From Dokdonella sp. (GTDB taxonomy: Bacteria; Pseudomonadota; Gammaproteobacteria; Xanthomonadales; Rhodanobacteraceae), in the NCBI GenBank assembly GCA_019634795.1, contig JAHCAR010000014.1, positions 1 to 64,000 on the forward strand: DNA of 64,000 nucleotides. The letters are read 5' to 3'. Numbering within the stretch: position 1 is the stretch's first letter; the number at the start of each line of letters is the position of its first letter. A program made the translations under genes and the position numbers. Below, piece by piece: positions 7,938-51,908 of this stretch. Under the pieces are notes generated by a model, which ran no database searches, was not told where the DNA came from, and saw only the letters and a program-made list of their open reading frames with translations.

Positions 7938-7990
7938 GGTTCCGCGCAACGCCGCATGCCGTGCAGGCAAATTGCGGCGCCCCATGCGTG

Positions 7991-8018
7991 CCTGTAGCCG
8001 CAAGCTCGCGGCTACAGG
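7991..8018. repeat. REP-like perfect hairpin
   Basis: CCTGTAGCCGC (7991-8001) pairs perfectly with GCGGCTACAGG (8008-8018) across a 6-nt loop. It is an intergenic REP-type palindrome in the 258-nt spacer before fdsA. No T tract follows, so it is not an obvious intrinsic terminator. Confidence 0.75.
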
Positions 8019-8084
8019 CCGCCATTGCCGACTCTCGCGGCGGATGGCGCGGGTTTCGGTTGCGGGCGCCGCGTTGCTGCTTCG

Positions 8085-8113
8085 TTGTAGGAAGAGCCTT
8101 CAGGCTCGATGCT
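8085..8113. repeat. REP-like element (TGTAGGA...GAGCCTTCAGGCTC type)
   Basis: The sequence TTGTAGGAAGAGCCTTCAGGCTCGATGC contains the hairpin GAGCC-TTCA-GGCTC (8094-8107). It is the same type as the TGTAGGAGCGCCTTCAGGCGCGATGC elements at 50835 and 51051. Confidence 0.75.
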
Positions 8114-8195
8114 TTTTCCCACCCATCGATTTTGCCCAGCCCGATGACGCGCGCATAATCGGGATGTACCGCGCGCGACATTCGGGCCCCTGACC

Positions 8196-11162
8196 ATGCG
8201 CTCCATCGCTGACACCGACTACGGCACACCGGCGGTCCAGTCACTGGACACCCTCAAGCTCGTGCGCCTCGACATCGATGGCGTCCCGGTCAGGGTGCCG
8301 GTCGGCACCTCGGTCATGCGTGCGGCGGCCCTCAGCGGTATCGGCATTCCGCGCCTGTGCGCGACCGATACCCTCGATGCGTTCGGTTCATGCCGGCTCT
8401 GCCTGGTCGAGATCGATGGCATGAAGGGCTATCCGGCCTCGTGCACGACGCCGGTCAGTGAAGGCATGAAGGTGACCACGCAGAGCGCGAAGCTCGCCGA
8501 GCTGCGGCGCGGGGTCATGGAGCTCTACATTTCCGATCATCCGCTCGACTGCCTGACCTGTCCGGCCAACGGACATTGCGAATTGCAGGACATGGCCGGC
8601 GTGGTCGGCCTGCGCGAGGTGCGCTATGGCTACGACGGCGCCAACCACGTGTTCCCGGAGAATGTCACCTGTGCGAGCGTCCCCGCTCGCGAGGGTCAAG
8701 AAGCGGCCATCCCTGGCCGCACTCTTCAGAAAGCGATTAATCCACGCTTCATCGCCATCGATGCGTCGAATCCCTATTTCAGCTTCGATCCGTCCAAGTG
8801 CATCGTCTGCTCGCGCTGCGTGCGCGCCTGCGACGAGGTCCAGGGCACCTTCGCGCTGACCATCCAGGGTCGCGGATTCGATTCGAAGGTGGCGGCCAGC
8901 CAGGACGAATCCTTCCTCGCTTCCGAATGTGTATCCTGCGGCGCCTGCGTGCAGGCCTGTCCGACCGCGACGCTGACCGAGAAGTCGGTGATCGAGAAGG
9001 GCCAGCCGCAGCGCAGCGTGGTCACCACCTGCGCCTATTGCGGCGTGGGCTGCTCGTTCCGCGCCGAGATGCAGGGCGAGGACGTCGTGCGCATGGTTCC
9101 GCACATCGACGGCAAGGCCAATCACGGCCACTCCTGCGTCAAGGGTCGCTTCGCGATCGGCTACGCCACGCACAAGGACCGCATCACCACGCCGATGATC
9201 CGCAGGAAGACCAGCGATCCATGGACCGTGGTCAGCTGGGATGTGGCCATCGCGCATACGGCGAAGGAGTTCCGCCGCATCCAGGAGCAGTTCGGCCGCG
9301 ATGCGATCGGCGGCATCACCTCCTCGCGCTGCACGAACGAGGAAACCTGGCTCGTGCAGAAACTCGTGCGCGCGGCCTTCGGAAACAACAACGTCGATAC
9401 CTGCGCGCGGGTCTGCCATTCGCCGACCGGTTACGGCCTCAAGGCCACGCTCGGCGAATCGGCCGGCACCCAGGATTTCGACTCGGTCATGCAGGCCGAC
9501 GTGATCTTCGTCATCGGCGCCAATCCGACCGACGGCCACCCGGTGTTCGCCTCGCAGATGAAGCGCCGCATGCGCGAGGGTGCCAAGCTGATCATCGCCG
9601 ATCCGCGCAGCATCGACCTCGTGCGTTCGCCGCATGTCGAAGCCGATTTCCTGCTCAAGCTCAGGCCCGGCACCAACGTCGCCCTGCTCAATGCGATGGC
9701 CCATGTCGTCGTCGACGAAGGCCTGGTCGACGAGGCCTTCGTCGCCCTGCGCTGCGAGCCCGGGGCCTTCGCGAAGTGGAAGGCCTTCGTCGCCGATCCG
9801 CGCCACTCGCCCGAGGCGACCGCACCCGAAACCGGCGTGCCGGCCGATCAGGTCCGCCGCGCCGCGCGCCTGTTCGCGACCGGCGGCAATGCGGCGATCT
9901 ATTACGGCCTCGGCGTCACCGAACACTCGCAGGGTTCGACCGCGGTCATGGCCATCGCCAACCTGGCCATGGCCACCGGCAACATCGGCCGCCGCGGCGT
10001 CGGCGTCAATCCGTTGCGCGGACAGAACAACGTGCAAGGCTCATGCGACATGGGCTCGTTCCCGCACGAGCTGCCTGGCTACCGTCATGTTTCCGATGCG
10101 GGCGTGCGCAGCAGCTTTGAGCACGACTGGAGTGTCAGCCTGCTGGCCGAACCGGGCCTGCGTATCCCGAACATGTTCGAGGCCGCGCTCGATGGCGAAT
10201 TCAAGGGCCTCTACATCGAAGGCGAGGACATCGGCCAGTCCGATCCGAACACCCAGCACGTGACCGCGGCGCTCGGCGCGATGGAATGCGTGGTCGTGCA
10301 GGACCTGTTCCTCAACGAGACGGCCAAGTTCGCCCACGTTTTCCTGCCCGGCTCGACCTTCCTCGAAAAGGACGGCACCTTCACCAATGCCGAGCGCCGC
10401 ATCTCGCGCGTTCGCCGCGTCATGAAACCGAAATCGGGCTATGCCGACTGGGAGATCACCCAGCTGCTCTCGAATGCGCTCGGCTACCCGATGAACTACA
10501 CGCATCCGTCCGAAATCATGGACGAGATCGCGCGCCTGACCCCGACCTTCGCCGGCGTCAGCTACGCGAAGCTCGATGCGCTCGGCAGCATCCAGTGGCC
10601 GTGCAATGCCGAGGCACCCGACGGCACGCCGACCATGCACGTCGACGAATTCGTGCGCGGCAAGGGCCGCTTCATGCTGACCGAGTACGTGCCGACCACC
10701 GAGAAGGTCAATGCGAAGTTCCCGCTGATCCTGACCACAGGCCGCATCCTCAGCCAGTACAACGTCGGCGCGCAGACGCGGCGCACGCCGAATACGGTCT
10801 GGCACAGCGAAGACCGCCTCGAGATCCACCCGCACGACGCCGAGCAGCGCGGCATCCACGAAGGCGACTGGGTCGGCATCGCCAGCCGCGCCGGCGAAAC
10901 CGTGCTGCGCGCGCAGATCAGCGAACGCATGCAACCCGGCGTCGTCTACACCACCTTCCATTTCCCGTTCTCGGGCGCCAACGTCATCACCACCGAGAAT
11001 TCCGACTGGGCCACCAACTGCCCCGAGTACAAGGTCACCGCCGTCGAGATCACGCGTGTGTCGCAACCCTCCGAATGGCAGCAGCGCTACCGTGCCTTCA
11101 GCGAAGTGCAGCAGGAATTGTTGCGCGAGAGACGCAAGGCACGGGATTCGACGTTCTCGTAG
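8196..11162 (+). CDS. fdsA: NAD-dependent formate dehydrogenase alpha (catalytic, molybdenum) subunit
   Basis: The 988-residue protein oxidises formate to CO2 at a Mo-bis-pyranopterin centre. In order: an N-terminal [2Fe-2S] ferredoxin domain (LCATDTLDAFGSCRLCLVE), a NuoG-like HPLDCLTCPANGHCELQD cluster site, and a double 4Fe-4S ferredoxin (CIVCSRCVRACDE and CVSCGACVQACP). The catalytic domain then has its own cluster (TCAYCGVGCSF) and the Mo-ligand Cys in CARVCHSP, so the enzyme is cysteine- rather than selenocysteine-dependent. The C-terminal molydopterin-dinucleotide domain includes TTGRILSQYNVGAQTRR. About 30 residues around 157-188 are an in-frame insertion encoded by two DNA hairpins, placed between the NuoG-like site and the ferredoxin domain. 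The upstream partners are fdsG and fdsB. Confidence 0.94.
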   Translation: MRSIADTDYGTPAVQSLDTLKLVRLDIDGVPVRVPVGTSVMRAAALSGIGIPRLCATDTLDAFGSCRLCLVEIDGMKGYPASCTTPVSEGMKVTTQSAKLAELRRGVMELYISDHPLDCLTCPANGHCELQDMAGVVGLREVRYGYDGANHVFPENVTCASVPAREGQEAAIPGRTLQKAINPRFIAIDASNPYFSFDPSKCIVCSRCVRACDEVQGTFALTIQGRGFDSKVAASQDESFLASECVSCGACVQACPTATLTEKSVIEKGQPQRSVVTTCAYCGVGCSFRAEMQGEDVVRMVPHIDGKANHGHSCVKGRFAIGYATHKDRITTPMIRRKTSDPWTVVSWDVAIAHTAKEFRRIQEQFGRDAIGGITSSRCTNEETWLVQKLVRAAFGNNNVDTCARVCHSPTGYGLKATLGESAGTQDFDSVMQADVIFVIGANPTDGHPVFASQMKRRMREGAKLIIADPRSIDLVRSPHVEADFLLKLRPGTNVALLNAMAHVVVDEGLVDEAFVALRCEPGAFAKWKAFVADPRHSPEATAPETGVPADQVRRAARLFATGGNAAIYYGLGVTEHSQGSTAVMAIANLAMATGNIGRRGVGVNPLRGQNNVQGSCDMGSFPHELPGYRHVSDAGVRSSFEHDWSVSLLAEPGLRIPNMFEAALDGEFKGLYIEGEDIGQSDPNTQHVTAALGAMECVVVQDLFLNETAKFAHVFLPGSTFLEKDGTFTNAERRISRVRRVMKPKSGYADWEITQLLSNALGYPMNYTHPSEIMDEIARLTPTFAGVSYAKLDALGSIQWPCNAEAPDGTPTMHVDEFVRGKGRFMLTEYVPTTEKVNAKFPLILTTGRILSQYNVGAQTRRTPNTVWHSEDRLEIHPHDAEQRGIHEGDWVGIASRAGETVLRAQISERMQPGVVYTTFHFPFSGANVITTENSDWATNCPEYKVTAVEITRVSQPSEWQQRYRAFSEVQQELLRERRKARDSTFS
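8673..8720. repeat. Palindromic repeat element inserted in frame inside fdsA
   Basis: Two adjacent hairpins lie within the coding sequence: GCGAGC (8673-8678) pairs with GCTCGC (8685-8690), and GCGGCCA (8703-8709) pairs with TGGCCGC (8714-8720). They encode VPAREGQEAAIPGRTLQ, a stretch that normal FdsA proteins are not expected to have between YGYDGANH and DASNPYF. This looks like a REP-type element that entered the gene without breaking the frame. Confidence 0.7.
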
Positions 11163-11240
11163 ACCGCGTTCACCCTTCGACGGGCTCAGGGCGAACGGAT
11201 ATCGGTGGTTCGAGTCTTTCCTGAAAGCACTCGGCCCGCG

Positions 11241-11592
11241 ATCTGTTCGTCCCTGGTCCATCGTGGAACAAGCGGTATCGGTGGTTTGTGATTGTCTGGG
11301 AAATGCGCAGTCCCGGATGCATTCGTCCTGAGCCCGTCGAAGGATGAACGGTCGGTAGTCTGGGTCTTTCCTCGAGATGCCCGGTCCCCGATCCGCTCGT
11401 CCCGAGCCCGTCGATGGGTGAACGGCCGATGGTCTTTGTCTTTCCTGGAGATGCGCGGTCCCGGATCCGCTCGTCCTGAACCCGTCGAAGGGTGAACTGC
11501 CAGTAGTCTGTGTCTTTCCTGGAGGTGCCCGGCCCCCGATCCGTTCGTCCTGAGCCCGTCGAAGGATGAACGGCAATGCCGCCAGGCATTGC
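11241..11592. repeat. 74-bp tandem repeat array, block A
   Basis: Units recur every 74 bp: the phrase CGTCCTGAGCCCGTCGAAGG starts at 11324, 11398, 11472 and 11546, with a diverged unit near 11248. Each unit also contains a GTCTTTCCTGGAGATGCCCGG-like second half. The core matches the CCTTCGACGGGCTCAGGACGA family of dispersed proteobacterial repeats. The block ends with AACGGCAATGCCGCCAGGCATTG. Confidence 0.85.
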
Positions 11593-11664
11593 AGCCGCAA
11601 CACGGCCGATGCCTCGCGACCCATTCAATCCCTGGTCCCCCGGCCCGAAATCCGAAGCACCCCA

Positions 11665-11715
11665 CACCACCTCACCGTCATCCCGGCGCAGGCCGGGATC
11701 CATCTTGATGTTGGC
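11665..11715. repeat. Dispersed GTCATCCCGGCGCAGGCCGGGATCC repeat
   Basis: The CATCCCGGC-GCAG-GCCGGGATC hairpin between the two 74-bp repeat blocks is a widespread proteobacterial intergenic repeat type. No gene is seen in this spacer. Confidence 0.6.
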
Positions 11716-11800
11716 CAATAGTCGCGAAGCAGGAGCAGGGTCAAGACGTCGTTGTCCGTCCAGGCTCCAGGCTCGTGCAAGGCTCATCCCACGACGCACC

Positions 11801-11935
11801 GATCCGTTCGCCCTGAGCCCGCCGATGGGTGAACGGTCGGTAGTTTGGGTCTTTCCCGAAAATGCCCGGCCCCCGATCCGTTCGTCCCGAGCCCGCCGAC
11901 GGATGAACGGCAATGCCGCCAGGCATTGCCGCCTC
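11801..11935. repeat. 74-bp tandem repeat array, block B
   Basis: Two further 74-bp units (phrase starts at 11809 and 11883) end in the same AACGGCAATGCCGCCAGGCATTG motif as block A. The two blocks therefore look like copies of one array. The remaining bases to 12117 hold the SulP leader. Confidence 0.85.
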
Positions 11936-14643: not shown

Positions 14644-14732
14644 TTCGAAAGGTACGCCGCAGCGGGAAACGGGTGCAGGCAGCCTCGCGGCATTCGGCAT
14701 TGCCCCGACGCCGAAAGCGCCACGATCCGATG

Positions 14733-14841
14733 CTTCTCCCCGGAGCGGGAGAAGCTGCCGACAGGCTGATGACAAGTCCAGGGATGGACTTGGTAGAGCA
14801 ACGCAGGGAGCAGTTGCCGAGGGTGGACGCGCGAAGCGCGC
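14733..14841. repeat. 109-bp direct repeat, copy 1
   Basis: CTTCTCCCCGGAGCGGGAGAAG through the GCGCGAAGCGCGC hairpin is repeated almost exactly at 14999-15107. The whole 14644-15284 spacer appears non-coding; short open frames through it simply read the repeat. Confidence 0.85.
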
Positions 14842-14998
14842 CAGTCGACGTTTTCGCGGCATGAGCGAAGAGTCGTCCCTCATATCGCCGGTAAGCGAAA
14901 TCCCCGGGCGTCGGGAACGCAGCCAGCGAGACTTCTCCACGCCTGATTCGTCCCTTCCTTCCTCAATGTCCGGACCCCGGGAGCGCCCGAGTCCGAGG

Positions 14999-15107
14999 CT
15001 TCTCCCGGGAGCGGGAGAAGCTGCCGACAGGCTGATGACAAGTCCAGGGATGGACTTGGTAGAGCAACGCAGGGAGCAGTTGCCGAGGGTGGACGCGCGA
15101 AGCGCGC
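14999..15107. repeat. 109-bp direct repeat, copy 2
   Basis: This is the second copy of the repeat at 14733-14841. It begins with the hairpin CTTCTCCCGGGAGCGGGAGAAG and ends in GCGCGAAGCGCGC. Between the copies I see no gene. Confidence 0.85.

Positions 15108-51252: not shown

Positions 51253-51908
<656 letters not shown>

Follow-up and report, generated by a model that had tools for sequence, protein, structure and literature searches.

A dispersed two-hairpin element of the Rhodanobacteraceae carried in frame by the formate dehydrogenase subunit FdsA

The window analysed here, a stretch of 64,000 nucleotides from Dokdonella sp. (contig JAHCAR010000014.1, positions 1 to 64,000), contains fdsA, the gene for the alpha subunit of formate dehydrogenase, and positions 8671-8732 within this gene are an in-frame copy of a dispersed element made of two hairpins. 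We consider it probable that this palindromic element, common in the Rhodanobacteraceae, is a tolerated in-frame passenger of FdsA, that it arrived there repeatedly, by insertion, by recombination between species or by both, and that it is an RNA unit whose peptide is a by-product.

The element in fdsA and its dispersal

The host gene and the parts of it on which the argument depends are the following:

8196-11162, plus strand: fdsA, formate dehydrogenase alpha subunit, the host gene (open reading frame of 988 residues; NCBIfam TIGR01591, E 1.4e-276)
8550-8579, plus strand: codons of C119, C122 and C128, the NuoG-like cluster site on the 5' side of the linker (invariant columns; PF10588 at residues 104-143)
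8671-8732, plus strand: two-hairpin repeat element ASVPAREGQEAAIPGRTLQ, in frame, residues about 160-178 (62-position model; core about 8672-8729)
8673-8690, plus strand: hairpin 1, GCGAGC-GTCCCC-GCTCGC (arms GCGAGC at 8673-8678 and GCTCGC at 8685-8690; folds with 7 pairs and a 4-nt loop)
8703-8720, plus strand: hairpin 2, GCGGCCA-TCCC-TGGCCGC (arms GCGGCCA at 8703-8709 and TGGCCGC at 8714-8720)
8799-8831, plus strand: codons of C202, C205, C208 and C212, the ferredoxin-like motif on the 3' side of the linker (invariant columns; Fer4_7 / Fer4_Nqo3)

The original prediction, drawn from the letters of the window, had placed two perfect hairpins within the fdsA reading frame, in the linker that separates the NuoG-like site from the ferredoxin-like motif; both are there, in that linker and with the frame kept, in a protein whose Pfam domains are Fer2_4, NADH-G_4Fe-4S_3, Fer4_7 and Molybdopterin. 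The RNA of the 62-nt element folds at -30 kcal/mol (z -3.65). Adjacent hairpin pairs of this kind (6 bp with a 6-nt loop, then 7 bp with a 4-nt loop) occurred in none of 20 block shuffles of the window (mean 0.0), against four on the plus strand of the real window, namely the fdsA element, two within a 149-nt repeat that is present twice, and one at 51365.

The same prediction had counted about 30 extra residues, a figure that holds only against the short linker of distant FdsA proteins: the repeat itself encodes 19-20 residues, and nearer relatives of FdsA without it have linkers about 20 residues shorter than that of the window. Its expectation that related proteins would lack the segment was correct, since the segment is missing from most FdsA homologues examined, the element-free ones having shorter linkers, and also from the solved structures 6tg9 and 9wxb, whose linkers are likewise shorter. 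The closest FdsA among the 80 loci kept is that of Dokdonella immobilis (92% amino-acid identity, lineage Rhodanobacteraceae). We assume from the open frame that the insert is translated as part of FdsA; AlphaFold gave a mean predicted local distance difference test score (pLDDT) of 69.5 for the 988 residues and of 53.5 for the N-terminal part, with the insert poor in both models (about 41-47).

We surveyed 233 genomes of the Rhodanobacteraceae, taken as the family of the window, with R2, a covariance model of the element, whose sole match in the window at E <= 0.1 is 8671-8732 (78.4 bits, E 5e-18), with 13 of 13 model pairs formed. The element is about 57 nt long and consists of two side-by-side hairpins, with loops like RTCCNT and an A-rich spacer between them. 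With a 60-nt consensus as query, 14 of 20 genomes yielded copies, as many as 17 in a single genome, and these included tandem copies about 64 nt apart; tandem copies run head to tail. At E <= 1e-3, R2 matched 185 of the 233 genomes and 21 of 26 genera, with no match among the 17 genomes listed for genus g16; the window's own genome holds at least five R2 copies, one of them in frame in DnaG, and all per-genome numbers are lower bounds, 18-23 candidates having been scored per genome. The supposition that the hairpins belong to a dispersed palindromic element is thus borne out. A draw of 299 genomes of the order gave 65 that match R2 at E <= 1e-4, 53 of them within the family and 12 outside it, the latter with 1-4 matches each.

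The two stems are also supported by covariation. With the stems given, 92.3% of the cells pair in 30 aligned copies, and 30 cells carry double changes, against a shuffled mean of 7.1 (0 of 500 shuffles); the covariation score is 0.228 for the given structure and at most 0.059 when the structure is slid. Rfam at gathering score had no match in the window and only tRNAs in 17 loci carrying copies, while a lax Rfam scan of 8000-9400 returned only a weak CRISPR-DR20 match at 8964-8994. On the antisense strand of the element the two loops read, by eye, like ATGGAT and AGGGAC, which we take to resemble the GGA-in-loop sites of CsrA/RsmA.

The FdsA linker across the family

FdsA was matched in 87 of the 233 genomes, and the linkers of these 87 loci were read. 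R2 at E <= 0.01 finds the element in 24 of them, 18 forward and 6 reverse, the reversed copies using a frame of the other strand; one of the six (L205, 1794-1855) lies in the linker of an FdsA-like paralogue without the NuoG-like cysteines. Beyond these 24, two linkers (L134 and L136) keep, as judged by eye, a decayed forward peptide. The L181 linker holds four tandem in-frame units of 20 residues each. Three further linkers (L176, L199 and L201) have taken up an unrelated repeat with CCTCCCC/GGGGAGG arms: in genomes G052, G055 and G228, a part of the L199 insert is matched 64, 8 and 9 times, counts that include the insert itself and, in part, one place seen on both strands; for the L176 insert the figures are 43 in G052 and 3 in G228. 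Three long linkers (L140, L141 and L147; 42-45 residues), where R2 has no match at E <= 1, may hold fully decayed inserts.

How an RNA element could come to lie in a protein may be pictured as follows. The element has one stop-free sense frame, which encodes a polar peptide of 19 residues, so that copies could sit in protein genes without necessarily disrupting the host protein. Copies landing in loops, linkers or C-terminal ends would survive and the others would be purged. At FdsA, the element would have fallen into a linker turn between two iron-sulphur domains and been tolerated there as a passenger, its copies decaying with time and at times being amplified in tandem, and its repeated presence would reflect new insertion, local recombination between species, or both.

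The distribution of carriers bears on this history. On a quick FdsA tree built without the linker (98 rows, with the paralogue L205 and the window itself, L121, left out; 95 rows in the tests, after L195, L043 and L207 were dropped), carriers and empty genes are interleaved, with at least 21 state changes over the 95 rows; the empty gene L178 is a close sister of the carrier L125. A single clade was rejected both for 15 forward carriers (p-AU, from the approximately unbiased test, 5e-26) and for 5 reverse carriers (p-AU 4e-4), the groups having been named after the tree was seen.

The alternative that fares best, at a little under even chances, is that a single ancestral insertion into fdsA was kept or spread by recombination of the linker between species and lost to empty alleles, with no repeated insertion. 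It has several things in its favour: (i) stem type GAGC or GCGC is found in 9 of 9 fully paired FdsA copies and in 1 of 81 copies outside the known hosts (duplicates included), which argues for shared descent or for exchange between FdsA alleles. (ii) In the 30 nt next to the insert, two chosen pairs of distant carriers, L124/L125 and L144/L142, show an identity of 0.97, where their empty sisters reach 0.70-0.83. (iii) Orthologous in-gene copies are more alike than copies of the same genome (0.924 against 0.866), being higher in 14 of 15 cases. (iv) Luteimonas aquatica has an FdsA copy but few other copies. Other hosts also have stem types of their own, GGTC in 12 of 13 IlvE tails and GTTC in 5 of 5 LeuD tails, and, together with the likeness of orthologues, this means that the copies at one host site tend to form a lineage of their own, although presence is patchy. 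However, a single insertion gives no account of the reversed elements and unrelated repeats at the same spot; two other carrier pairs, L126/L122 and L127/L122, are only 0.73 identical beside the insert; and, in a permutation test, the link between flank similarity and carrier state reached no farther than about 6 codons and was not consistent between the two sides.

We also considered gene conversion among genomic copies as the source of their similarity and rejected it, non-orthologous copies of the same genome (0.866, n=23) being as alike as copies from other genomes (0.864, n=1967). To judge from these comparisons, repeated insertion, exchange between species and loss may each have operated at the FdsA linker, one or several of them.

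Other hosts, copies between genes and the level of selection

The FdsA case is not isolated, since the element is also present in eight further protein families. We sorted 119 copies, mainly the best scorers, by codon scores; four pairs represent the same or an identical place, which leaves 115 distinct copies, and these fall into 77 outside genes, 21 in C-terminal tails and 17 within genes, a split that depends on thresholds set by us and is not a genome-wide ratio. One sense frame is shared by 16 of the 17 in-gene copies (L212, the one exception, is a call on the reverse strand and looks spurious) and by 18 of the 21 tail copies (the exceptions being L118, L270 and one copy in L097). The peptide that it encodes is of the type A[VFIL][VIF]PDREDQ(K/E)AAIHGRT; the DnaG copy has a first loop one base shorter, and only its later part is in the common frame. 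At L212 (1501-1562) we observed, in addition, that both flanks score as one sense coding frame, yet a TAG stands in the surrounding open frame.

Hidden Markov models (HMMs) named the in-gene hosts as DnaG, MutS, GcvP, HutF and a FAD-dependent protein, and the tail hosts as IlvE and LeuD (a single protein of each was scanned); RecJ joined the list later, and HMMs also confirmed a second MutS and a second HutF. DnaG carriers are L002, from the window's own genome, and L108, both by HMM, together with L102 and L120 by sequence. Among 20 further places with long open frames, picked by hand, 16 lie by sequence in MutS (9), RecJ (5), HutF or IlvE; the frames of the other four (L333, L334, L345 and L351) look spurious. 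A peptide search returned mainly IlvE tails among its top loci because its query was shaped like such a tail.

Relatives without the element were examined for two of these unrelated proteins, FdsA and IlvE. The IlvE set consists of 50 genes chosen by homology and non-randomly, the 30 nearest to one carrier and 20 picked by hand from the match list; R2 finds the tail in 16 of the 50 and the peptide reveals it in one more (L364), most of the others end without a tail, a few tails are too decayed to tell, and presence varies even within one genus. Two further observations concern the same gene: L305, the same place as L214, has repeated element units in its IlvE tail, and a further copy lies on the other strand near ilvE, at the constant position of about 2400-2464, in L369, L370, L376, L355 and L362.

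The copies between genes point to what the element may do. Of the copies outside the known hosts, 79 are distinct: 43 have neighbours on both sides that are read with the element, 5 have both neighbours read against it, none was placed between convergent or divergent genes, and the other 31 have at least one unclear side. Since the neighbours are mostly co-directional, we infer that the element would act as a sense RNA in polycistronic messages, in their processing or stability, its peptide being a by-product.

Whether such hairpins are selected within coding genes too is a separate matter. A structured RNA element whose mRNA hairpins regulate processing, and whose in-gene copies are kept as nucleic acid, is a real possibility, though one that we lean against. 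In-gene copies outside FdsA, found by score, have 98.5% of their cells paired and 21 double changes against 3.9 when shuffled, and the FdsA copies have 90.2% paired and 12 double changes against 4.5 (18 copies, without L131, L134 and L136); between orthologous in-gene copies, compensatory change runs from C-G to U-A in the IlvE of one genus, and A-U/C-G exchanges are seen in MutS, HutF and FdsA. Across 15 IlvE tails, recognised by peptide pattern in genes picked by homology, identity at third positions is 0.84 (0.61 upstream) and that of the amino acids 0.67 (0.82 upstream), and at synonymous codons identity is higher in the element in 89 of 105 pairs; here it is the nucleotides rather than the peptide that look constrained. 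The lack of any sign of gene conversion, mentioned above, favours the same view. On the other side, 11 of the 20 forward FdsA copies are incompletely paired or no longer have the sequence, and over all 20 the third positions are not conserved (0.63 in the insert, 0.66 in the flanks): the nine intact copies reach 0.90 against 0.69, and the other eleven only 0.49 against 0.64. Furthermore, some IlvE tails (L364 and L389) have decayed, copies picked by score are biased towards intact ones, and repeated insertion of variants could mimic compensation.

The peptide itself fares worse. The original prediction had called the repeat domesticated, meaning that a repeat-derived peptide would have gained a function in FdsA, for instance in spacing the iron-sulphur domains or in binding a partner, and we now regard this as very improbable. 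The insert stays in frame in different genera, and the same insertion is found in the window and in D. immobilis; nevertheless, over the 20 forward carriers amino-acid identity falls from 0.93 in 90 flanking codons to 0.59 in the insert, and for the window and D. immobilis it falls from 0.98 in the flanks to 0.59 again. Moreover, close sisters lack the element, as L178 does beside L125, and the same site takes reversed elements or unrelated repeats with different peptides. With a peptide that evolves so fast relative to its flanks, the FdsA segment looks, as far as sequence comparison can tell, like a tolerated passenger rather than a domesticated part. As for chance hairpins in GC-rich coding DNA, where short inverted repeats are favoured, or a long conserved FdsA linker, we dismiss both as next to impossible, the former on the block shuffles and on a dispersed sequence that covaries, the latter on the shorter linkers of homologues, 6tg9 and 9wxb among them.

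The reading of the element as a repeatedly arriving RNA unit with a tolerated peptide has to contend with several results that weigh against it: (i) RNA action would follow from covariation, orientation and third-position conservation, and the last of these is strong in score-picked copies, weaker in the homology-picked IlvE tails and absent over the 20 forward FdsA copies, the strong signal having come from score-picked copies and 12 hand-picked FdsA copies. (ii) The rarity of the FdsA stem types among resident copies speaks against copies hopping in at random. (iii) The flank permutation test for exchange gave a short and mixed signal. (iv) No transposase was found, Y1 transposases being present in 117 of the 233 genomes and not tracking the element. 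(v) Neither a target-site duplication nor the exact ends of the element were established.

A broader proposal is tentative, and we hold it to be unlikely as a whole: that a structured RNA element of operon mRNAs, present throughout the family, also serves as a cassette compatible with coding, with selection on the sense hairpins even in the IlvE and LeuD tails and perhaps in MutS; that the FdsA linker repeatedly receives repeats of two or more unrelated families, one of which lands there in either orientation; and that protein loops would serve as a reservoir of RNA elements.

Relation to known repeats, and other hairpins of the window

Palindromic repeats that invade proteins are best known from the intracellular Rickettsia, where weak selection is a usual explanation, and the Rhodanobacteraceae are mostly free-living. 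Here, in a family with genomes of 1.5-7.3 Mb, proteins are invaded as in Rickettsia, and the hosts are metabolic enzymes and enzymes of DNA replication and repair. Because related species provide natural empty, intact, decayed, reversed and tandem versions of one site, insertion, tolerance, decay and selection at the RNA level are directly testable with ordinary laboratory enzymes such as FdsA, DnaG or IlvE.

The kind to which the element belongs is already known, from Rickettsia palindromic elements (RPEs) and from intragenic repetitive extragenic palindromes (REPs), while the element family itself looks new; judging by listings of open-access papers, we found no description of it, a search for four short strings of its sequence and peptide included. 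Compared with the passages in which the known repeats are described, it shows both likenesses and differences: (i) RPEs are known in frame in Rickettsia and, like the element, are dispersed palindromes found both between genes and in frame within unrelated proteins (PMC2229807, PMC3767692); at one and the same site, orthologous genes may contain RPEs of different groups (PMC3767692). By description, however, RPEs measure 100-150 bp and belong to Rickettsia and Wolbachia (PMC2229807, PMC3767692), whereas the element has about 57 nt, two side-by-side hairpins and gammaproteobacterial hosts in the Rhodanobacteraceae. (ii) The GTAG and CGTC REPs are short hairpins lying mostly between co-directional or convergent genes; many intragenic ones are in replication and repair genes, a pattern that the DnaG, MutS and RecJ hosts of the element fit, over half of them encode 20-30 residues, and the recB genes of two Xanthomonas species were hit by a REP at about the same site (PMC3733652). 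The GTAG REP is described with an unpaired GTAG tag at the foot of the hairpin, which the element does not have, and the CGTC REP with an unpaired CGTC tag, a stem of 8-9 bp and a loop of 4-5 nt, whereas the element is untagged and has stems of 6-7 bp; REP dimers are mainly head to head (PMC3733652), whereas the tandems of the element are head to tail and none of its copies was seen in convergent lie. Indeed, a count over all 119 copies (115 of them distinct) gave no GTAG and no CGTC on the element's strand in the 8 nt that adjoin the stems on the outside; the other strand has GTAG (read CTAC) downstream in 2 copies and CGTC (read GACG) in 1, and in 2 copies CGTC lies between the stems. (iii) ERIC/IRU, RU-2 and RU-3 resemble the element as small non-autonomous repeats with open frames that fuse to reading frames, but their description gives 103-168 bp, enterobacterial hosts and long stem-loops (PMC2229807), against the two short side-by-side hairpins of the element.

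Mobility driven by REP-associated tyrosine transposases (RAYTs) was considered as well. Y1_Tnp is also present in element-free genomes and missing from some element-rich ones, and we claim no mover.

Other repeats were noticed in the window. Upstream of fdsA, at 7990-8019, the hairpin GCCTGTAGCCGCAAGCTCGCGGCTACAGGC has GTAG in its arm and looks REP-like by eye. Directly behind fdsA, 11167-11911 holds four partly overlapping 148-nt copies in 74-nt steps, with 34-nt inverted arms of the GTTCGTCCTGAGCC..GTCGAAGG type, which look dispersed. Two 149-nt direct repeats, 91% identical and each with adjacent perfect hairpins, lie at 14693-14841 and 14959-15107, and another adjacent pair of perfect hairpins lies at 51365-51411.

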